From Victivallis vadensis (lineage in GTDB: Bacteria; Verrucomicrobiota; Lentisphaeria; Victivallales; Victivallaceae), in the NCBI RefSeq assembly GCF_003096415.1, contig NZ_QEKH01000016.1:1-64000 (forward strand): a stretch of DNA of 64,000 bases, read 5' to 3'. This document shows positions 6,836 to 54,052 of the stretch, in pieces. How positions within the stretch are numbered: the stretch's first letter is position 1; every line of letters starts with the position of its first letter. The position numbers were made by a program, and so were the translations under genes. Under the pieces are notes generated by a model. It was not told the origin of the DNA and searched no databases. It saw only the letters and a program-made list of their open reading frames with translations.

Positions 6836-6848
6836 GCCGTGGGAGATG

Positions 6849-7206
6849 CCTCCGGCGGCCGGGGGCGCTTCGCCCCCCGGACCCCCCGACCGGGTAGCAC
6901 CCGGTGGCGGGTACGGTTTTGAATTTTTACTGCGTAAAAATTACAAAACCGGGGGTATTAATAATGGGGTGGATTGGCTCTATGTGCGTTTTACCGCACC
7001 GGCACGTTGCCGGTTGGGGCAAGGGACGAAGTGCCCTTGTCGTCGAAGACAGTCACGGCAGCGGCACCTTGCCGCCGCGTAGCGCCCAGCTACCGGAGAT
7101 GCGATTGAAAATCAGGCCGCGTAGCGCACAAGGTCTGCCATCCGACAGGGCGGGCAGACCCGCCTGCCTTCAAAACGGCAGGCTTCCCCCTGCGCTTTGC
7201 TTCTGA
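6849..7206 (+). repeat. Family A GC-rich palindromic repeat, long copy
   Basis: No convincing gene lies between 6836 and 7328. The block begins 14 bp after the synthase stop and is a mosaic of hairpins: ccggcggccgggggcgcttc/gccccccgg, a CCGGCANNNTGCCGG-type stem, a TTTTTAC-TGCG-TAAAAA stem near 6927-6945 and a GGTATTAATAATGG segment. In reverse orientation the same order of parts appears at 37050-37384. A 34-bp stretch at 7104-7137 is identical to the reverse complement of 37109-37142. Short frames inside (around 6904-7206) look like translated repeat, not genes. Confidence 0.75.
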
Positions 7207-8689: not shown

Positions 8690-9400
8690 ATGAAGAAATG
8701 TGAAAATTTTACGCTTATTGAGCTGCTCGTTGTAATCGGCATTATTGTGTTGTTGGCCGGCCTGATTCTGCCGGCGGTGATGAGTGCTCAACAGAAAGGA
8801 CGAATTACTCAGGCCAAAGCCGATATGGCAAGTATTCTGACTGCGTTGAAAAATGTTGAAAATACTTATAACCGGATGGTGAGCGGCAGTGGCACTTCTT
8901 ATCGTTTTGGAGGAAGTAGTGACACTGTTTCGGAATCGAGTAAAACGGCAGGAGGAACTGAGTACAAATATATTCAATTGGGAGACAGCAAAGATCAGGA
9001 TAAGAACAAGAAGACGAATGTTGTTTATGACAATTTTATCTTGGAATTAACGGCTCCCCAAGTTGTGACCAATTCCGATAACCTGAATATCAACAAGCGT
9101 AGAGTGAAATTTTTAGATCCACGTCCTAAATATGATCCTTCCAAAGGATTGGATGATACGATTGATGGAGTTGAGGAAGCTAACCGCAAACAGATGTGGC
9201 GGGATCCCTGGGGAAATCGCTATGTCATTCTGATCAATACGAATTTTTCTGATGGGATTCCCAAGCCAAGCGATGATAACAAAATTATTTCCAGCAAGGC
9301 TATCGTCTATTCCTGGGGACCCAATGGAACCGGAAATGATGGGAAAAATGTTCTTACGGGCGGAGATAAGACGGATGACGATGTTACCAGTTGGGATTGA
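8690..9400 (+). CDS. GspG-like type II secretion pseudopilin
   Basis: A 236-aa pseudopilin. It begins MKKCEN then F-T-L-I-E-L-L-V-V with Glu at +5 and a long hydrophobic N-terminal helix, followed by K-A-D-M-A-S-I-L-T-A-L as in major pseudopilins. The C-terminal half carries W-R-D-P-W-G-N-R-Y and S-W-G-P-N-G-T-G-N-D-G, matching the 'DPWGNPY ... SxGxDG' pattern of GspG, where acidic residues bind calcium. It lacks the H-X9-DG motif. A GAGAAGG site precedes the ATG, and a strong terminator follows. It could be the structural subunit of a secretion pseudopilus used by this organism's exported enzymes, but no other gsp gene is in the window. Confidence 0.8.
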   Translation: MKKCENFTLIELLVVIGIIVLLAGLILPAVMSAQQKGRITQAKADMASILTALKNVENTYNRMVSGSGTSYRFGGSSDTVSESSKTAGGTEYKYIQLGDSKDQDKNKKTNVVYDNFILELTAPQVVTNSDNLNINKRRVKFLDPRPKYDPSKGLDDTIDGVEEANRKQMWRDPWGNRYVILINTNFSDGIPKPSDDNKIISSKAIVYSWGPNGTGNDGKNVLTGGDKTDDDVTSWD

Positions 9401-28372: not shown

Positions 28373-29056
28373 ATGAAATCCCATTTTACTCTTATTGAGC
28401 TGCTCATTGTAATCGCAATCATAGCGATTCTCGCGGCGATGCTGTTGCCGGCGCTGAACAAGGCGCGGGAGAAGGCGTTCGCGACCCAATGCTTCTCCAA
28501 TCTGAAACAGATCGGCAACGGGCATATGCTCTATATGGGAACTTACGGCGATTATCTGACGCCGGCTCATATTCCGCATTACGGTTCGTGGGCGCACATT
28601 CTGGCCGGGCCGATGGGAATGGGGGGAAGCCGGGTGTTCACCTGTCCCGCGGTGGACCGGGCGATCTATCCGGTGTTCGACCTCAAGGATACGCTGACGA
28701 TCACGGACAATCCGTTCAAGGAGCCGCTTAAACTCGGGTTCAAGCAGAATTTCCGCAGTTCCTATCACTCCGGATATCCGACTAGCACCGCTTATACGAA
28801 AGTGACCCAGTGGCGGCGGCCGTCGGTCAGTGTGCTCAACTGCGACAACGGCAATGGAAACAACAACAACGTAGTTGTCAACGACTACGATATTTCCACC
28901 TGCAGCGGCGGAGGGGCCGGCGTGGAAAAAGCGGCCAGTTTCCGGCAGCACAGCAACCTGATCCATCTGCTGCTGCTTGACGGCCACACGGCTCCGGCAA
29001 ACGACGGGGAATTGTTCAACTCAAAATATTGGTGGCGGACCGATCGGGTTCGCTGA
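28373..29056 (+). CDS. Prepilin-like H-X9-DG protein
   Basis: A 227-aa prepilin starting MKSH then F-T-L-I-E-L-L-I-V, the hydrophobic helix and [18 protein letters not shown]. The C-terminal [12 protein letters not shown] is an intact H-X9-DG motif. AAGGAGAAAGTC is upstream of the ATG. It is the third gene of the GntR operon, between the binding protein and the GH39-like enzyme, and mirrors the prepilin in the divergent LacI operon. Confidence 0.87.
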
Positions 29057-36783: not shown

Positions 36784-37390
36784 CGGGGGAAGCCGCGCCG
36801 ACGACGGGGACGGCGAGGCTGCTCGCCCCTGCGGGCAACAGACCTTGTGCGCTACTTGCAATCAGGCATCGGTAGCTGGTCGCTGCAGCACCCGGTGGCG
36901 AATACCGCCGACAGACTTCCCGCAATCCATTATTAATACCTCCGGTTTTGAGATTTTTGCTGCGCAAAAAACTCGAAACCGTACCCGGCGCCGGCACCTT
37001 GCCGGTCTGGGGGACCGGGGGGCGAAGCGCCCCCGGCCGCCGGAGGCAAAGTCCCGGAGAAGCCATGCCGCTTTTGCGGCAGGCGGGTCTGCTTGCCCTT
37101 TCGGGCAGCAGACCTTGTGCGCTACGCGGCCTGATTTTCAATCAGGCTCCGGTAGCTGGGCGCATAGCGCACAACTGTCTCCGACGGGCAAGGCGCTTCG
37201 CCCTTGCAACCCGACCGGCAACGTGCCGGTGCGGTAAATCGCCGCTAGACCGTATTCAACCCATATTAATCCCCCCGGTTTTGAGATTTTTGCTGCGCAA
37301 AAAACTCGAAACCGTACCCGGCGCCGGCACCTTGCCGGTCTGGGGGACCGGGGGGCGAAGCGCCCCCGGCCGCCGGAGGCTCTCGCCCCC
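36784..37390 (-). repeat. Family A GC-rich repeat, two adjacent units
   Basis: Between the mutarotase start and the stop of the next gene lie two units in reverse orientation (about 36784-37049 and 37050-37384), each carrying hairpins, the GCAAAAATCTCAAAACCGG block and the GTAGCGCACAAGGTCTG block. A roughly 105-bp segment (36943-37049 and 37279-37384) is nearly identical in both. Small frames such as 36755-37141 repeat the same translated motif as the copy at 6849 and are not credible genes. Confidence 0.8.
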
Positions 37391-39995: not shown

Positions 39996-41327
39996 ATGAC
40001 CCCCGAAGAACTCAGGAAAGCCGCCCTCGCTTACCATCATGACGGCGCTCCCGGCAAGATTTCCGTCGTCGCGACCAAGCCGTGCAACACCGCGCAGGAC
40101 CTTTCGCTCGCCTACACGCCCGGCGTCGCGCAGCCCTGCCTCGCGATCAAGGAGACTCCCGCCGATGTCTGGAACTATACCTCGCGCGGCAATCTCGTCG
40201 CGGTGGTCAGCGACGGCACCGCCGTACTGGGCCTCGGCAATATCGGCCCGGAGGCCGGTCTGCCGGTGATGGAGGGCAAAGCGGTGCTTTTCAAGCACTT
40301 CGCGGATATCGACGCGGTTCCGGTCTGCCTCGGCAAGGTGTTCAATGAGAAAGGGCGCACCGACGCGGCCAAAGTGATCGAGACCGTCGAGCGACTCGAA
40401 CCGACCTTCGGCGGAATCAACCTTGAAGACATCGGCGCGCCCGCCTGTTTCGAGGTCGAACAGACTTTGAAAAAGCGGATGAACATTCCGGTTTTCCACG
40501 ACGACCAGCACGGCACGGCGATCATTTCTCTGGCCGCGATCATCAATGCGCTGAAGATGGTCGGCAAGAAGATCGAAGATTGCAGATTCGTGGTCAACGG
40601 CGCGGGAGCGGCGGGAATCGCGTGCAGCCGCTTCTACATCACCGCCGGGGCGAAACGTTCCAACTTCATCATGTGCGATTCGAAGGGCGTGATTTACAAG
40701 GGGCGCACCGACCTGAATCCGGAAAAGCAGGAGTTTGCCGCCGAAACCGATGCGCGCACACTGGCCGACGCGATGAAGGGAGCGGATATCTTCCTCGGCT
40801 TCTCGGCACCGAACTGCGTGACGGCCGAGATGGTCAAGTCGATGAACAAGGGGGCGGTGATCTTCGCGATGGCGAATCCGGTGCCGGAGATTTTCCCGGA
40901 TGTGGCGCTGGCGGCGGGAGCGGCGGTGGTCGGAACGGGCCGCAGCGACTTCCCGAACCAGATCAACAACGTGCTGGGATTCCCGGGGATTTTCCGCGGG
41001 GCGCTGGATGTGCGCGCGAGGGACATCAATGAGGCGATGAAGCTGGCGGCGGCGAATGCGCTGGCGGAGCTGGCGGCGGAGTCGATTCCGGCGGATGTGA
41101 AGGAGCAGCTGACGGCGGCGTATCCGGCGGATGCGGCGGCGGGGATGTTTGAGGGGGAATCGCAGCTGAAGGCGACGTATGTGATTCCGAAGCCGTTTGA
41201 CCCGCGGGTGGTGCCGCGCGTGGCGATGCGCGTGGCGGAGGCGGCGATGAAGACGGGTGTGGCGCAGCTGAAGATCGAGGACTTGAAAGAGTACGAAAAG
41301 AGCGTAGCAAAGCGCATTAAAAAATAA
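39996..41327 (+). CDS. Malic enzyme (malate dehydrogenase, oxaloacetate-decarboxylating)
   Basis: A 443-aa enzyme that converts malate to pyruvate and CO2 with reduction of NAD(P). Y-T-P-G-V-A and the [22 protein letters not shown] segment are typical. [10 protein letters not shown] holds metal ligands, and N-G-A-G-A-A-G-I-A is the nucleotide-binding loop. The protein is the short bacterial form without the phosphotransacetylase domain of MaeB. The start at 39996 follows CAGGAGACAC. Cofactor choice is not evident. The stop is immediately followed by a family B repeat. Confidence 0.93.
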
Positions 41328-42105
41328 AAAAATATAAAGAACAGGCGGCGGAGCCGCCGTCGCCGCCGGCAGCTTGCCGGTCGCAGTCCAGCGCGCGAAC
41401 TGCGCTGGTCGAAGGCGGAGGGAGCGCGCTGGCGCGGCTCCCGGAGCCTTCGAAATGTAAGGTCGGCGAATGCCGACCGCAATGCAGCAGTACTGCCCGG
41501 CGGAGCGCGCGATCACTCAAAGAAGCAAAGCGCCTTTGAGTGATCGGTTCAGAGCGCGGAGCCGCCGCGAGGGGCGGCGACAGCGGATGGTAATTGCAGA
41601 CGCAACCACGCGGACGCGAGAGCGTCCCCCGCGCCGCGAAGCGTCTGAGGTGCGGTGCGATTGTTTGCGGTGATGTGTCAGAGAGACAGGCAAGGCTGAT
41701 TGAGCTTTGCTGCGGTTTTCGGTGGCCGTAAAGGTGATGGCGGCGGCAACGCGCTTACCGCCGGAAACAAAAATTCGCGTTGCTTATTTTTGATTCCGGC
41801 AAGCGCTTTTGCGCGGGTGGTACTGTTGCGGTTGCGGTCCGCATTCGCGGACCTTACATTTCGCTCCGCTTCGGACCCGCGCCTGCGCGCTCCTGCGCGA
41901 AGCGACCAGCGCTTCTCCGCTGGACCGAGCCCGGCAAGCTGCCGGTGGCGACGCCGCTGCGCGGCTTTACTTTTTATTTATTTTTATTTGGGAAAGTTTT
42001 CAGCCGACCAGCGCTTCTCCGCCGGACCGAGCCCGGCAAGCTGCCGGTGGCGACGCCGCTGCGCGGCTTTACTTTTTTATTTATTTTTATTTTGGGAGAG
42101 CTTTC
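41328..42105. repeat. Family B structured GC-rich repeats (two copies, one internally duplicated)
   Basis: No gene lies in this 778-bp stretch. Copy B1 (about 41330-41650) is in reverse orientation and matches the copy at 45716-46036. It contains a 12-bp stem GATCACTCAAAG/CTTTGAGTGATC (41511-41522/41534-41545). Copy B2 (about 41810-42105) is forward and lacks that stem. Its 3' part is duplicated in tandem with a 102-bp period (41904-42005 and 42006-42105), each ending CGCGGC then a T-rich tail. The second tail ends at the ribosome-binding site of the GH78 gene. Confidence 0.8.
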
Positions 42106-44916
42106 ATGGATATCATCGCCAACTGGATCTGGTCCGACGACTCCGACGGCCGCGGCTACAACCTCTGCTCCATCTTCCGCCGCGATTTCCGCCTGGCCGC
42201 GCTGCCTGTTACCGCCCGCCTCGCCGTCACCGCCGACAGTTTCTACCGGCTCAAAGTCAACGGCCAATGGCTCAACGACGGCCCCTGCCGCAGCTGGCCC
42301 GGCCACTGTCAGTACGATGTTTACGATCTTGACGGCATCCTTCGTGCCGGAGCCAACCACATCGAAGCGGTCGTCCGCTATTTCGGCTGCGGCGATTTCC
42401 ACCGCCTGCCGCAGCGCGCCGGTTTTCTCGCCCAGCTTGAAGCCGCCGACTCCGACGGCAACGTCACCGTAATCGGCACTGATACCGAGTGGGTCGCCGC
42501 CGAAATGCCCCAGCTGCGGCGCAACGTTCCCAAGATTTCGATCCAGCAGCCGCCTTTTGAGTGTTTCGACAACTCCGAGCCGGAAGCGCCGGTGTGGCGC
42601 AAGGCCGTGCTGGTCGCCCCGGCGGAGGGCGGCCCGTGGAAGGAGCTGAAGGAACGCGACTGCCGGCTGCTTTCCCGCCGCGAATTCCTGTTCCGGGATT
42701 TCGTATCGGCTCACCGGGTGATGCCGGCGTATTCCACGGTGGCGGTTGCGCCTCACGCGCTGCTGTTTCCCGGCGATACGACCGTCAATACCAGTGACGT
42801 GCTGCCGCTGCTGATCGCCTTTGAGATCGATTCGCCGCGCTGTCAGGAGGTGGTGATCGCGCGGGAAGGCGTGAATGTCTCCGTGAACGGACGCAGTGCG
42901 GACGGCGGAGCGTGGCACTTCAACGAAGGCGGCAATTTTGTGGTGCTCGCCCCGGAGAACCTGAACGGGCACTGCGCCCTTTACGGCATCGGCTTTCCGC
43001 CGGAATCCGGCCTGACCGCGGAAGCGGTCCGCGACGCGGTGCTGGTGCGTTTCCCGAAACTTGCCCGGCTCGCCCCCGACCGGCCGTTCTGTACGCTGAA
43101 TGCGCAGTTTCAGCAGAGCGTCCGGGAGTTTCAGCCATTGGCCGCCGGGGCGCTGAAGTTGCCGGAGCGGGAAGCGTTCCTGAAGGAGTTCCCGCAGGCG
43201 GAGCCGCTGGCCGCCGGGGCGCTGGTCGACGACGACGCCCACCTCTCTTTCGTGCTGCGCCGGGCGGAACCGGTGCAGCCGGGGGATGTGACCGATCCGG
43301 AATTCATTCTCTACCCGGACGACTGCTGCGCGGTGATCCGGCCGGTCGAAGGGCGCGACATTGAGTTGTGTTTCGACCTCGGCGAGCAGAACATCGGCTG
43401 CTGGAACTTTTCGCTGTTCGCCGCCGCCGGAACTGTCGTCGACGTGGCGGCGATCGAATACAAAACGCCGAACGGAGCATTGCAGCACACCGGGCCGGGC
43501 TGCCGCAATTCGATGCGCTATATCTGCCGCGAGGGGATCAACCGCTATACCGCGATGCAGCGGCGCAGCGGGCGCTACGTGTATGTGACGCTGCGGAACA
43601 TGACCGCGCCGGTGCGCTTCCAGTCGTTCCGGCTGGTGGAGTCGACCTATCCGGTGGTTCCGGCCGGTTCCTTCCATTGCAGCGATCCCGCGATGAACCG
43701 GATCTATGAGATTTCGCAGCGGACTTTGAAGCTCTGCATGGAGGATACCTTCACCGACTGCCCGCTCTACGAACAGACGCTCTGGGTCGGGGACGCCCGC
43801 AGCGAATCGCTGTTCGCGATGTCCTCTTTCGGCGCATACGACCTGGTGCGCCGCTGCATCCGGCTGGCGGGGCAGTCGCTGGACGATATGCCGATGGTGC
43901 TCTCGCAGGTGCCGACCGGCTGGAGCTGCATTATCCCGGCATGGAGTTTCATGTGGAGCTATTCCGTCTACGACTACTGGTTCGAGACCGGAGACGAGGA
44001 GTTCCTGCGGGAAGTGTGGCCGATGGTGAAGAAGAATCTGGAGGGAGCCGCCGCCTGCGTCGATCCGGAGACGGGGCTTTTCTCCGCTCCCGACTGGAAC
44101 TTCTTCGACTGGAACCGGACCGATTGCGGCCACCGCATCATGCTGTACAACTCCTTCTTCCACGCCGAGGCGCTGCGCACGGCGGCGGAACTCGCCCCGG
44201 TCGCCGGGGAGCCGGAGCTGGCCGAGGGCTGGCTGGCGCAGCGCCGCAACCTGATCGACGCGCTGAACCGGGTGTGGGACGCGCGGCGGCTGGCGTGGCC
44301 GGATTCCATTCACGAGGACGGCACGCTCTCCGGAGACGTGAGCATCCATACCAGCATGCTGGCCGCGCTGTTCGATGCGGCGTGGCCAGAGCATCAGGCG
44401 GCGGTGCGCGCCAACACTGTGACGCCGCGCTCAGAACTGTTCAAGGTGGTTTCGCCCTTTGCGCTGTTCTACCTCTATGCGGCGTTGGAAAAGCTCGGCT
44501 TGCCGGGCGAGATTCTCGACGCGATCGGGCGCGACTACCGCCCGATGCTGGAAGTGGGCGCGACGACGGTGTGGGAAAACATTTCGCTGCACTTCAATCC
44601 CGACAGTGATTTCCCGACCCGGAGCCATTGTCACGCCTGGTCGGCGGCGCCGCTGTACTTCCTGCCGCGGCTGGCGCTGGGGATCATCCCCGCCGGGCCG
44701 GGCTGCCGCAAGATTCTGATTTCTCCGGTGGTGAACCGTTTCGAGTACGCCTCCGGCACCCGTCCCACGATCCACGGCCGGGTCGGGGTGCGCTGGAAAA
44801 AGCAGGGGCGCGAGCTTCATATTCAGGTGACGGCTCCGGCGGAGATCGAAGTCGAGTTTCTGCCCAACGACACGACCTTCGATTTTGAAGTGATCCTGAG
44901 CCGTTCGGCGGAGTGA
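42106..44916 (+). CDS. GH78 alpha-L-rhamnosidase
   Basis: A 936-aa enzyme expected to release terminal alpha-L-rhamnose from pectic or glycosidic substrates. It has N-terminal lectin-like beta domains (F-Y-R-L-K-V-N-G-Q-W near residue 50), a jelly-roll (about 390-540), the (alpha/alpha)6 catalytic barrel from about 550 and a C-terminal beta sandwich. The GH78 active-site block is intact: F-T-D-C-P-L-Y-E-Q-T-L-W-V-G-D-A-R, with its acidic residues. No signal peptide is present, so it acts in the cytoplasm on imported oligosaccharides. ATG 42106 follows GGGAGAG. It starts directly after a family B repeat whose T-rich tail may limit read-through. Together with the PL11 lyase it points to rhamnogalacturonan use. 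Confidence 0.9.
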   Translation: MDIIANWIWSDDSDGRGYNLCSIFRRDFRLAALPVTARLAVTADSFYRLKVNGQWLNDGPCRSWPGHCQYDVYDLDGILRAGANHIEAVVRYFGCGDFHRLPQRAGFLAQLEAADSDGNVTVIGTDTEWVAAEMPQLRRNVPKISIQQPPFECFDNSEPEAPVWRKAVLVAPAEGGPWKELKERDCRLLSRREFLFRDFVSAHRVMPAYSTVAVAPHALLFPGDTTVNTSDVLPLLIAFEIDSPRCQEVVIAREGVNVSVNGRSADGGAWHFNEGGNFVVLAPENLNGHCALYGIGFPPESGLTAEAVRDAVLVRFPKLARLAPDRPFCTLNAQFQQSVREFQPLAAGALKLPEREAFLKEFPQAEPLAAGALVDDDAHLSFVLRRAEPVQPGDVTDPEFILYPDDCCAVIRPVEGRDIELCFDLGEQNIGCWNFSLFAAAGTVVDVAAIEYKTPNGALQHTGPGCRNSMRYICREGINRYTAMQRRSGRYVYVTLRNMTAPVRFQSFRLVESTYPVVPAGSFHCSDPAMNRIYEISQRTLKLCMEDTFTDCPLYEQTLWVGDARSESLFAMSSFGAYDLVRRCIRLAGQSLDDMPMVLSQVPTGWSCIIPAWSFMWSYSVYDYWFETGDEEFLREVWPMVKKNLEGAAACVDPETGLFSAPDWNFFDWNRTDCGHRIMLYNSFFHAEALRTAAELAPVAGEPELAEGWLAQRRNLIDALNRVWDARRLAWPDSIHEDGTLSGDVSIHTSMLAALFDAAWPEHQAAVRANTVTPRSELFKVVSPFALFYLYAALEKLGLPGEILDAIGRDYRPMLEVGATTVWENISLHFNPDSDFPTRSHCHAWSAAPLYFLPRLALGIIPAGPGCRKILISPVVNRFEYASGTRPTIHGRVGVRWKKQGRELHIQVTAPAEIEVEFLPNDTTFDFEVILSRSAE

Positions 44917-44918
44917 GC

Positions 44919-45680
44919 CTACAGCCGTCCCGAATAGCAGCGGGTCGCGTTGTTCCAGCGGAGCTGTCCGTTTTCGGCGTACCGGTCGAACAGGGCGCCG
45001 AGTTCTTCCACGAAAGGCCGGTACTGCGGGGCATCGGGGCGCGGAGCGTAGGAGCTGGACAGATTGCGCCCGAGAAAGGTTTCCCGATCCATCCACAACG
45101 GATTCGGGAACTCCCGGCTTTCGAATTTTCCGGCGAAAAACTCCGAAACCGCCTCTTTCCCGGAACGGCTGGAGTGGCCGGAGAAACCGGTGAAATCCGG
45201 GCAGTGCTTCCGGCAGATTTCCCGGCATTCCGCCATGAGCGGGTCTGTCTCGATCCGGCTGTTCCAGATCAGGATCACCGGACCGCCGCTCCGCAGGATG
45301 CGGCGGCACTCCTCCCGGAACTGCACCGGGTCGAACCAGTGGAACGCCTGTACCGCAAAGACCGCGTCGACGCTTCCCGCCGCCAGCGTGGTGCGTTCGG
45401 CGGCGCCGACGACGGAGACGAAGCCGGGCATTCCGCCCAGCTCGCGTTCCGCCTGCTTGCGCATATCGGCGTTGGGTTCGACTGCGTAAAGGCGGCGTAT
45501 TCCCTGTTCCAGCAGCAGCCGCGCGAAAATGCCGGTGCCGGAACCGATTTCGGCGGCGACGGTGTCGGGTCCGACGCCGGGAAAGGTTTTCAGGCAGTCG
45601 AAAAGCGCCGCCGGGTAGCCGGGGCGGTAACGGCGGTAGACCTCGCCGAGGCCGGTGAATTTTTCAGTGTTGTCCTGCAT
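44919..45680 (-). CDS. Class I SAM-dependent methyltransferase
   Basis: A 253-aa methyltransferase. Motif I is A-A-E-I-G-S-G-T-G-I-F-A near residue 42, V-E-P-N-A-D-M forms motif II, F-A-V-Q-A-F-H-W-F-D corresponds to motif IV and L-R-S-G-G-P-V-I-L-I-W-N to the following strand. This is the Methyltransf_11/UbiE-like layout with the H-W-F-D variant common in proteins annotated only as methyltransferases. Substrate unknown. It converges on the GH78 gene with 2 bp between the stops. Confidence 0.85.
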   Translation of the reverse strand: MQDNTEKFTGLGEVYRRYRPGYPAALFDCLKTFPGVGPDTVAAEIGSGTGIFARLLLEQGIRRLYAVEPNADMRKQAERELGGMPGFVSVVGAAERTTLAAGSVDAVFAVQAFHWFDPVQFREECRRILRSGGPVILIWNSRIETDPLMAECREICRKHCPDFTGFSGHSSRSGKEAVSEFFAGKFESREFPNPLWMDRETFLGRNLSSSYAPRPDAPQYRPFVEELGALFDRYAENGQLRWNNATRCYSGRL

Positions 45681-45715
45681 GTGTATCGTCCTGTTCTGTT
45701 GTTTTTTTCAAAAAA

Positions 45716-46036
45716 AACACTTTACGCCGTGAGGGACGCTCTCGCGCCCGCGTGGCGGCGTCTGCAATTAGGATGTGCTGTTGACGCCCCTCGCGGCGGC
45801 TCCGCGCGCTGAACCGATCACTCAAAGGCGCTTTGCTTCTTTGAATGATCGCGCGCTCCGCCGGGTGGTACTGTTTCGGTTGCGGTCGGCATTCGCCGGC
45901 CTTACATTTCGAAGGTTCCGGGAGCCGCGCCTGCGCGCTCCCTCCGCCTTCGACCAGCGCTTCTCCGCCGGACCAAGCCCGGCAAGCTGCCGGTGGCGAC
46001 GCCGCTGCGCGGCTGTTCTTTTTAAGTTTTATTTTT
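45716..46036 (+). repeat. Family B structured GC-rich repeat
   Basis: A forward copy of the element also present in reverse at 41330-41650. Hairpins in order: GATCACTCAAAG/CTTTGAATGATC (one mismatch), GGTCGGC-ATTC-GCCGGCC, CGAAGG...CCTTCG enclosing GGGAGC/GCTCCC, CCGGCA-AGC-TGCCGG, and GCCGC-TGC-GCGGC followed by a T-rich tail that ends at the zwf stop codon. No gene is present in 45681-46036. Confidence 0.8.
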
Positions 46037-47521
46037 TCAGAGTTCGCGCCATTCGCGGTTGTCCAGAAACAGCATCCGGTTCGCTTCCGTCGGCCCGTCG
46101 CTGCCGGGCGCATAGGTGACCAGCGGGCAGTCATGCTGCCAGTTTTCCAGCACCGGCGTAAACAGCTTCCAGCTCTCCGCGATTACGTCGCTGCGGATGA
46201 ACAACGTCTGGTCGCCGAGCATCGCGTCCAGCAGCAGCCGCTCGTATGCTTCGAAGCTCTCCCCGCCCGGAAGTTCGGAGTAGCGGAAGTTCAGGCTCAA
46301 GCCCCCCATGCAGAGCTTCGGGCCGGGCTGTTTGGCCTGGATCGTCAGCTCCATCCCCTCGTCCGGCTGCACTTTCAATACCAGCGTGTCCGGCTGCATG
46401 TCGCTCGCCTTGATCGGCGCGAAAATCGAGTGCGGAATCGTCTTGAACACGATCGCGATCTCGCTCTTACGCTTCGCCAGCTTCTTCCCGGAACGCAGGT
46501 AGAACGGCACCCCGCTCCACCGCCAGTTGTCGATCATCAGCTTGGCCGCCACATAGGTTTCCGTGGTCGAGTCCGGCTTGACTCCGGGTTCGTCAAGATA
46601 TCCCTGATACTGGGCGCGTACCACCGAATCGTGCAGATGTTTGAGGTCGAAGGGACGGATCGACTGGATCAGCTTCACCTTTTCATCGCGCACCGCGTCC
46701 GCCGAAAACGAGCTGGGCATCTCCATCGCCGCCATCGCCAGCATTTCGAGCATGTGGTTCTGGAACATGTCGCGCAGCAGGCCGGACTGGTCGTAGTAGC
46801 CGGCCCGGTGCTCCACCCCGAGGGTTTCGGCGACGGTGAGCTGGATGTGGTCGATGTAATGGCTGTTCCAGACCGGCTCGAAGATCAGGTTCGCGAAGCG
46901 GAGCATCATGATGTTCTGCACCGTGTCCTTGCCCAGATAGTGGTCGATCCGGTAGATCTGGTCCTCTTTGAGATAGCGGTGCAGCTGGATATCCAGTTCT
47001 TCGGCGGAGGCGGTGTCGCGGCCGAAAGGCTTTTCCAGCACCACGTGCCGCCACGAACTGCCGTCCTCCGGTTCGGTGAGCTGGCCGGTCGCGTAAAGCT
47101 GTTCGATGATGGCGGGATAGAGCGCCGCGGGCATCGCCAGATAGATGGTGCGGTTGGCGGGAAGTTCGCTGCCTTTTTCCAGCTCGTCGAGCCGTTGTCC
47201 GAGGGCGTGGTAGTTTTCGGCCCTGTTGTAGTCGAGTCCATGGTAGTGGATGCGCCGCAGGAATTCGTTCAGCTCCGCATCGGTGCCGCCGGTGAGTTCG
47301 GGGCGGATGTGGTCGCGGAAGCCGTCGTCGCTGTAGGCGGTGCGGGCGCAGCCGACGATCCGGGACTCCTCATGGAGCAGCCCGCGCCGGAACAGGTGGT
47401 ACAGCGCCGGATAGAGTTTGCGCCTGGCGAGGTCGCCGGAAGCGCCGAAGATGACCAAAGTTCCGGGGGCCGGGCTGACTTCGATGCAGAAATTGCCGCG
47501 CCAGTAGTTGCTTTCCAGCAT
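46037..47521 (-). CDS. zwf: Glucose-6-phosphate 1-dehydrogenase
   Basis: A 494-aa enzyme that oxidises glucose 6-phosphate to 6-phosphogluconolactone with NAD(P), opening the oxidative pentose-phosphate pathway. The N-terminal dinucleotide fold begins G-A-S-G-D-L-A-R-R-K-L-Y-P-A-L near residue 28. The substrate and catalytic motif R-I-D-H-Y-L-G-K-D-T-V-Q-N is near residue 180, and E-K-P-F-G-R-D is also present. Full length. Upstream on the minus strand TTGAAA-N16-TATTTT (about 47570-47605) may be its promoter. A family B repeat abuts its stop. Confidence 0.95.
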   Translation of the reverse strand: MLESNYWRGNFCIEVSPAPGTLVIFGASGDLARRKLYPALYHLFRRGLLHEESRIVGCARTAYSDDGFRDHIRPELTGGTDAELNEFLRRIHYHGLDYNRAENYHALGQRLDELEKGSELPANRTIYLAMPAALYPAIIEQLYATGQLTEPEDGSSWRHVVLEKPFGRDTASAEELDIQLHRYLKEDQIYRIDHYLGKDTVQNIMMLRFANLIFEPVWNSHYIDHIQLTVAETLGVEHRAGYYDQSGLLRDMFQNHMLEMLAMAAMEMPSSFSADAVRDEKVKLIQSIRPFDLKHLHDSVVRAQYQGYLDEPGVKPDSTTETYVAAKLMIDNWRWSGVPFYLRSGKKLAKRKSEIAIVFKTIPHSIFAPIKASDMQPDTLVLKVQPDEGMELTIQAKQPGPKLCMGGLSLNFRYSELPGGESFEAYERLLLDAMLGDQTLFIRSDVIAESWKLFTPVLENWQHDCPLVTYAPGSDGPTEANRMLFLDNREWREL

Positions 47522-53040: not shown

Positions 53041-54052
53041 AAGAGAGGGGGGCGGGGGCGAGAAAGCGGCGACTTGCGCCGCGTCTCTCCCCGTACCAAA
53101 TTTCCTCAACATCTCCCTCACTCTCGGCAAGCTCTCACGCCTCCGCCAATGCTCTGCAAGCGGCAAGTCGGAGCAAAAACGTGAAGTTGTTTTTCCGCAG
53201 AAAAGCGGGAAGACAACTTCACGTTATTGCGGATCTTCTTCCCTCCGCCGACCGACCGCGTCTTTGCACTGCACCGCCCTGTACGCGGCACCGGCACCTT
53301 GCCGGACGCAGGGGGTGCGGGGGGCGGCGGACACGCCCCCCGCATATCGCCGCTTAAGGCCGATCATCACAAAATTCACCCTCATTGAGCTGCTCATTGT
53401 AATAGCGATCATCGCGATTCTGGCGGCGATGATGCTGCCGGCGCTGAACAAGGCGCGCGAGAGCGCACGCACATCGAACTGCATCAACAACCTGCGGCAG
53501 CTGGGACAGGCGGAGCTGTTGTACGTGGATGCGTATGACGGACTGCCGACGGCGGTTCAGGATATGGCGCGCACGAGCCTGACGTGGCACCAGATGCTGC
53601 TGGTTTCGGGATTGCTGCCGAATAAGTCGGAACTGTTCGCGTGCCCGTCGGCGCCGGAAAAGACGCTGACTCCGGCGACGCTGGAAATGAACGGCGTGAC
53701 CTATGTTTACTACACCTGCTATGGAATCAATGCGGATCTGGTCGGGGACATCAGTAAAACCACGCGGGCCAGGAATTTCTATTCCGGCACGATTCCCTTC
53801 AAGCGGCTGGCCACGCCGAGCCGGACGATCCTGATCAGCGACCTGACGGACGGGCTGACCTATGCCGGTTTTTCGCAGTCGAGCTGGCACGAGCTGGGAA
53901 ATCCGCTTTCGACCAACGACCGGCACGGGGAGCGGCACTACAACGGGCGCGGCTGCAACATCCTGTTCGCCGACTTCCACGTGGCGGGGGCGCCGCACCC
54001 GGAAATTTACGACAACATCAGCGACCGTGCCGTCTACTTCGGGCGGAAGTGA
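52970..54052 (+). CDS. Prepilin-like protein with uncertain, repeat-filled N-terminus
   Basis: The conserved core starts at about 53376 with [11 protein letters not shown] and the hydrophobic helix, then [10 protein letters not shown]. The only in-frame ATG is at 52970, which adds some 130 residues translated from hairpins and GC-rich repeat; a GTG near 53307 would give a leader of about 22 residues. No ribosome-binding site sits close to the core. The C-terminal motif is degenerate: the last histidine is followed eleven residues later by D-F instead of H-X9-DG. It lies 12 bp upstream of the LamG/FG-GAP gene, so it is probably co-transcribed. The start shown is the longest possible and may be wrong. 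Confidence 0.65.
53178..53225 (+). other. Continuous 21-bp hairpin in the prepilin leader
   Basis: AACGTGAAGTTGT (53178-53190) pairs perfectly with ACAACTTCACGTT (53213-53225), and the stem continues inward through TTTTCCGC/GCGGGAAG with two G-U pairs to a six-base loop AGAAAA. There is no U-tail, so it is not an ordinary terminator. Confidence 0.7.
53270..53360 (+). repeat. Family A-like GC-rich repeat fragment
   Basis: The GGCACCGGCACCTTGCCGG hairpin followed by a GGGGGTGCGGGGGGCGG...CCGCCCC-rich block resembles the family A parts elsewhere and ends near GCCGCTTAA, as at the first prepilin gene. Confidence 0.5.

Follow-up and report, generated by a model that had tools for sequence, protein, structure and literature searches.

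The window analyzed here is a stretch of 64,000 nucleotides from Victivallis vadensis (contig NZ_QEKH01000016.1, positions 1 to 64,000 of the forward strand) that contains three copies, A, B, and C, of a hairpin-rich non-coding repeat which an earlier note, made from the letters of the window, had called family B (table 1). Copies A and B form an inverted pair that occupies the entire 779-bp gap between two codirectional genes, the first of which is malic-enzyme-like, and copy C stands alone next to a G6PD-like gene. The stems described in the earlier note were found again when the window sequence was re-read. In the orientation of that note, one variable stem is GGTCGGC/GCCGACC in copy A (41461-41478, minus strand), GGTCCGC/GCGGACC in copy B (41836-41853), and GGTCGGC/GCCGGCC in copy C (45884-45901), and the final stem, ahead of the T-rich tail, reads GGCGGC/GCCGCC in copy A and GCCGC/GCGGC in copies B and C. 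The proximity of the T-rich end to a gene boundary also holds for all three copies: it begins 0 bp from the stop codon of the plus-strand gene ending at 41327 (copy A), stops 0 bp from the stop codon of the minus-strand gene 46037-47521 (copy C), and stops ~11 bp from the ATG at 42106 with GGGAG in between (copy B).

Throughout this study the element is read starting from the A-rich end, opposite to the orientation in the earlier note. In this direction the parts follow each other in the order stop codon, A-rich stretch, hairpins P1, P2, P3, and P4, the fixed sequence AAATGTAA, P5, a stretch containing CAGTACC, P6 closed by the long-range pairing P7, and a less conserved head. Two types of the element were distinguished, T1 (~330 nt) and T2, which have the first ~245 nt in common and are divergent beyond. 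A 273-nt stretch of copy A displayed a folding z-score of -5.4 as RNA and -6.1 as DNA. The stem pattern of P2 has 21 matches genome-wide, nearly all of them at elements, and the arms of P7 read CCTCCCGC/GCGGGAGG or CTGCC/GGCAG in other species (identified by eye, no statistical score).

Table 1. Positions of the element copies in the window and of the structural parts of copy A.
Feature	Positions	Strand	Description	Basis
Copy A, type T1	41328..41657	+	A-rich end first, directly 3' of the stop codon of the malic-enzyme-like gene 39996-41327	nhmmer model positions 3-333; match of covariance model R1 at 41406-41551, 158 bits
A-rich terminus of copy A	41328..41343	+	T-rich tail on the minus strand	Sequence
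P1	41344..41358	+	Hairpin GGCGGC-GGA-GCCGCC; with the T-run, terminator-like on the minus strand	
P2	41366..41380	+	Hairpin CCGGCAGCTTGCCGG	
P3	41388..41408	+	Hairpin CCAGCG...CGCTGG	
P4	41409..41453	+	Hairpin with internal loop GGA/GGA	
Linker	41453..41460	+	Conserved AAATGTAA, kept across species	Mean pairwise identity 0.96 in own copies
P5	41456..41481	+	Hairpin with TGT/GCA foot and AA bulge; the stem named in the earlier note	Helix 4 of the covariation test
P7	41499..41566	+	Long-range pairing GGCGG (41499-41503)/CCGCC (41562-41566), closes P6	By eye, no statistical score
P6	41511..41545	+	Hairpin GATCACTCAAAG..CTTTGAGTGATC with loop AAGCAAAGCGC	Strongest covariation among the stems
Copy B, type T2	41740..41998	-	Minus strand starts with the A-rich end; paired with copy A in inverted orientation	
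Partial tandem copy (102-bp) of the A-rich end of copy B	42002..42094	-	P1-P3; adjoins GGGAG and the ATG of the gene at 42106	
Copy C, type T1	45712..46036	-	Single; A-rich end directly 3' of the stop codon of the G6PD-like gene 46037-47521 (minus strand)	

The host genome from which the window was taken contains many further copies, ranging in size from 180 to 330 nt and carrying six to seven hairpins. The G6PD of this Victivallis-like host shares 75% identity with that of an uncultured Victivallis MAG. A total of 50 places were identified by nucleotide search, ~20 of them substantial, and 22 matches by a covariance model; a profile identified 47 stretches within the ~615 kb of host sequence analyzed, a sample that is biased towards family matches. 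Exact-pattern scans with element motifs in genome contigs and viral contigs found nothing and BLAST against plasmids and phages returned no match. Rfam contained no match to the element at gathering or permissive thresholds and no description was found in the literature searched; with respect to both, the family was previously unlisted.

Relatives of the element were identified in eight other genomes of the same family (Victivallaceae), within three genera and with 1 to 36 copies each. A covariance model built from the own copies only (R1) found 36 copies in G002 (same genus), 14 in G019, 32 in G021, and 16 in G022 (another genus of the family), with a best match per genome of E 5e-8 to 6e-11, and no match in 73 other genomes of the family. 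A second model built on the R1 matches (R2) was applied to 388 genomes of the phylum and added four genomes of a third genus (G065, G041, G051, and G040); it found nothing outside the family, which is a weak negative with nine candidates scored per genome. Overall, BLAST recovered full copies in one species, and the covariance models detected nine species. The loci in the other species display the same order of stop codon, A-rich stretch, and P1-P6, with the motif CCAGCGGCGGAACGCTGGTCG and the unpaired linker CGAAA..TAAG.

A nucleotide search of eight genomes of the same genus returned only short P1-P2 matches, all in one genome (G001), where the sole find was a ~287-bp family that is partly tandem (L031) and resembles a second hairpin-chain repeat family of the window. 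This second family ("family A") carries P1-P2-like modules and is located at 36786-37380, 6848-7203, and 53281-53342. Several genes in the window share a repeated prepilin-like N-terminus (217-292, 8705-8780, 28382-28457, and 53372-53447).

The fold was analyzed in a MAFFT alignment of 18 genomic copies of the host that was not fitted to the structure. The covariation score was 0.462 compared with 0.149 (standard deviation 0.015) after shuffling, none of 500 shuffles reached the score, slid pairings scored at most 0.136, and 94.7% of the cells were paired. The score of 93 copies across species was 0.487 compared with 0.121 (standard deviation 0.006, 0/500 shuffles), based on an alignment fitted to the model, which favors its score. 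Among the own copies, P6 displays three or four pair types at nearly every position. The arms of P6 are 94% Watson–Crick within a copy but 36% after the arms are swapped between copies, and the corresponding values for the pairing of P4 are 91% and 52%. P3 is located outside the models R1 and R2 and therefore provides an independent check: 237 out of 240 positions are Watson–Crick across species, over ten different arm pairs. Fixed linkers such as CGAAATGTAAG show an identity of 0.96 in the own copies compared with 0.69 in paired columns; thus, the stems were rewritten while the linkers stayed fixed. All three genera share the fold P1 to P6. The earlier note had proposed that a structure, of RNA or of single-stranded DNA, is under selection, to be checked with more genomic copies; with more copies the covariation became very strong instead of giving way to broken stems, and the linkers proved to be conserved while the stems vary. 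Because the stems change on both sides with the fold unchanged in three genera, the folded shape itself probably matters.

Double changes of this kind might also be mainly mutational, with quasi-palindrome correction or template switching copying one arm onto the other without selection on the structure. At least one stem is rewritten by hairpin templating. In copy c11a (L066:12869-12979, C11 of the host genome), P4 is a perfect palindrome of ~20 bp that runs through the normally mismatched internal loop, apparently the result of a single event of hairpin-templated rewriting, and in copy c13b the apex AGG is inverted to CCT. Non-Watson–Crick cells are rare as well (512 out of 580 are Watson–Crick). 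However, the 3x3 internal loop of P4 persists in most copies beside rewritten stems, as do the AA bulge and TGT/GCA foot of P5 and the fixed linkers, although templating alone would erase such features, which argues against templating as the sole cause. G.T intermediates are common to several copies, the foot of P5 contains a G.T pair in 15 out of 18 copies, and the mismatches are biased towards G.T on one strand (of the column-states on the A-first strand, 19 are G.T and 6 A.C; p = 0.015 without correction for relatedness). An origin of the double changes mainly by mutation is therefore considered unlikely. The covariation that the earlier note had taken as a sign of selection stands, but some double changes derive from hairpin-templated rewriting, as in c11a, and are by themselves no evidence of selection.

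The earlier suggestion that the repeats are mobile is supported by empty sites in relatives and by terminal inverted repeats with 8-bp target duplications, which two related species display. The gap between ykgJ and gmk measures 740 bp in the host and ~16-20 bp in two same-genus relatives that were read directly (G001 and G006), and the purF-speE gap is 121 bp in the host and ~25-45 bp in six relatives; the copies at these two sites are therefore insertions. The 121-bp gap contains a minimal element consisting of an A-rich stretch, P1, P2, an inverted P1, and a T-rich stretch, and since the empty sites lack the A- and T-rich ends, both ends were brought in together with the element. In G021, GGTAGTGTCAAAAAT..TTTTTGACAGAACC ends together with 8-bp duplications were found at 14 copies. 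Of these duplications, 9 are perfect, and 101 out of 112 of their letters are identical, compared with a mean of 41 and a maximum of 73 in 2000 shuffles. Among the copies of G002 that have both ends, 3 out of 8 display perfect duplications. The two species thus carry the same core inside miniature inverted-repeat transposable elements (MITEs) with terminal inverted repeats, GGTAGTGTCAAAAAT and GGCTCTGTACGAAAGGTTGACTGAT, that differ between them (loci L211, L241, and L247-L263 in G021, and L214, L223, and L245 in G002).

These ends, the short size, and the lack of coding capacity would also fit ordinary degenerate MITE relics, in which the hairpins are terminal and internal inverted repeats of a DNA transposon and the fold has no function. 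This explanation is regarded as rather improbable: it is the internal core that is conserved, whereas the ends are wholly different between species, and diverged copies retain 95% of their pairs although relics should lose them. Moreover, no such ends were found in the window species. A tandem duplication that comprises ~20 nt of the 3' end of the upstream gene and the start of the element was observed 3' of the element at one locus in G041 (L276), and own copies on C13 and C16, as well as the stretch 42002-42094, display similar tandem duplications.

The copies are dispersed and inserted into short intercistronic gaps between codirectional genes, with the A-rich end usually at the upstream stop codon or, in reversed copies, before the Shine–Dalgarno sequence. 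In the host this was assessed with 442 genes predicted by a simple gene caller, so that the counts are approximate. All 14 element-bearing gaps lie between codirectional genes compared with a base rate of 0.57 for gaps of at least 100 bp (P = 4e-4), and an A-rich run 3' of a stop codon is found almost only at elements. The upstream protein ends in KK in 7 out of 14 cases, since the stop codon is often part of the A-rich end or directly adjacent to it. In reversed copies the T-rich stretch is followed by GGGAG or GAGG and then the start codon. Across all species, a stop codon on the same strand is present at the A-rich end in 51 out of 92 scorable copies and a start codon on the opposite strand in 11 (approximate counts).

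Read in the orientation of the earlier note, the element could be a small RNA gene with P1 and the T-run as its intrinsic terminator. P1 followed by the T-run is indeed terminator-like in all three copies of the window, and A-rich tails beside P1 recur in other species. Nevertheless, no promoter-like site was found within the element, the wobble bias favors the other strand, and most copies would be antisense to the gene that they follow; 22-36 diverged copies per genome would also be unusual for such a gene, and it seems quite unlikely that this explanation holds. The resemblance to known intrinsic terminators is limited to P1 and the T-run on one strand and leaves five further conserved hairpins unexplained. 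Of the terminator-carrying mobile hairpin suggested earlier as an example, mobility is supported but the terminator stays putative, as the hairpin and T-run lie opposite to the strand of the upstream gene in most copies. The fold energies show no difference between the strands.

A further possibility is a helper-dependent retroelement, in which a reverse transcriptase copies the folded RNA and insertion occurs at A-rich stop-codon sites. Most of the partial copies inspected retain the A-rich end, and reverse transcriptase genes are present in 5 out of 9 element-bearing genomes but in none of 5 element-free genomes of the same genus, a pattern that is a lead and not a result. However, the enzymes are of the retron type (III-A-like) in the host and G002 and group II-intron-like, by our reading of the sequence, in G021 and G022, and none is located beside a copy. 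G065 contains many copies and no reverse transcriptase, and the copies of G021 move as DNA with 8-bp duplications. A retroelement is thus regarded as highly improbable. A short P2-P3 fragment at C20:97728 lies ~2.6 kb away from the reverse transcriptase of the host (L288:1366-2331, C20:94502-95083; best PADLOC profile RT_III-A, E 8.5e-95).

Taken together, it is moderately probable that the repeats represent a mobile, structured, non-coding family of intercistronic elements of the Victivallaceae, with a fold that is probably RNA. The folding strand would be the strand that starts with the A-rich end, most likely as an RNA that is co-transcribed with the upstream gene, and a protein probably reads the fold together with the fixed linkers. 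By analogy with intercistronic repetitive extragenic palindromes and bacterial interspersed mosaic elements (REP/BIME), the fold would probably shield the upstream mRNA at its 3' end or mark where it ends, and/or serve the copying of the element. Turnover of the copies may involve tandem duplication, exchange between copies, and, occasionally, repair templated by a hairpin.

Several observations weigh against an RNA-based mobile family of this kind. The wobble bias is modest and comes from related copies, so that the assignment to a strand and a molecule is provisional, and the palindromic P4 of c11a points to templated rewriting. The window species yielded neither terminal repeats of the G021 or G002 type nor a target duplication. 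No helper enzyme was found either: the RAYT transposase that the earlier note had considered as a linked partner is not supported, with 0 matches to Y1_Tnp (PF01797) in the host genome, and TnpB (PF07282) is absent in the 14 genomes searched (IscB was not searched for). An IS256-type transposase is absent in G021 and present in G002 as remnants without matching ends, and the reverse transcriptases are of two unrelated kinds. The parent insertion sequences of the MITE ends in G021 and G002 were not found in a search for the IS256 type, other families of insertion sequences not having been looked for.

The element shares features with several known systems. REP/BIME sequences that are mobilized with RAYT are likewise intercistronic, palindromic, and mosaic, with inverted pairs and many copies between codirectional genes, but the Victivallaceae element is much larger than the 20-40 nt palindromes with a GTAG-type foot that characterize that system, and its fold is kept across genera with rewritten stems. 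Lacking Y1_Tnp in the host, the element does not belong to the REP/BIME-RAYT system. Prokaryotic MITEs (e.g., QMITE2 of Coxiella; PMC10969869) resemble the element in being non-coding and short, with AT-rich sites and stable transcript folds. The copies of G021, and in part those of G002, are MITEs by their terminal repeats and 8-bp duplications; for the window copies neither was found, and the conservation of an internal core with strong cross-genus covariation sets the element apart. The HEARO and OMEGA RNAs of IscB-TnpB elements are mobile and multi-hairpin, with dispersed copies mostly without a gene; the element differs in having no match in Rfam and no TnpB domain in the genomes searched for it. 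Mitochondrial mobile GC clusters and double-hairpin elements are also small mobile hairpin DNAs between genes. They reside in different genomes and are not known to share sequence with the Victivallaceae element, whose fold, in contrast, has been maintained in three genera through compensatory changes. The yeast family of these elements is the subject of PMC4478555.

Repeats scattered through bacterial genomes are, as a rule, classified by sequence and regarded as relics in decay. The Victivallaceae element retains a fold of six to seven hairpins together with its linkers and is located in operons exactly between the stop codon and the ribosome-binding site; nucleotide searches miss structured repeat families of this kind. 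Tentatively, and with the odds rather against it, the element might represent a new class of structured RNA, either selfish or used by the host, in which the RNA fold and not the DNA ends would be conserved and recognized, different DNA carriers would be borrowed (MITE ends in some species, A-rich stop-codon or Shine–Dalgarno ends in others), and operons would be reshaped by insertion between intact cistrons. Two questions can now be tested with this family: what share selection and templated repair each have in the compensatory change of palindromes, and whether intercistronic repeats persist because of the effect of a folded RNA on the expression of the operon.

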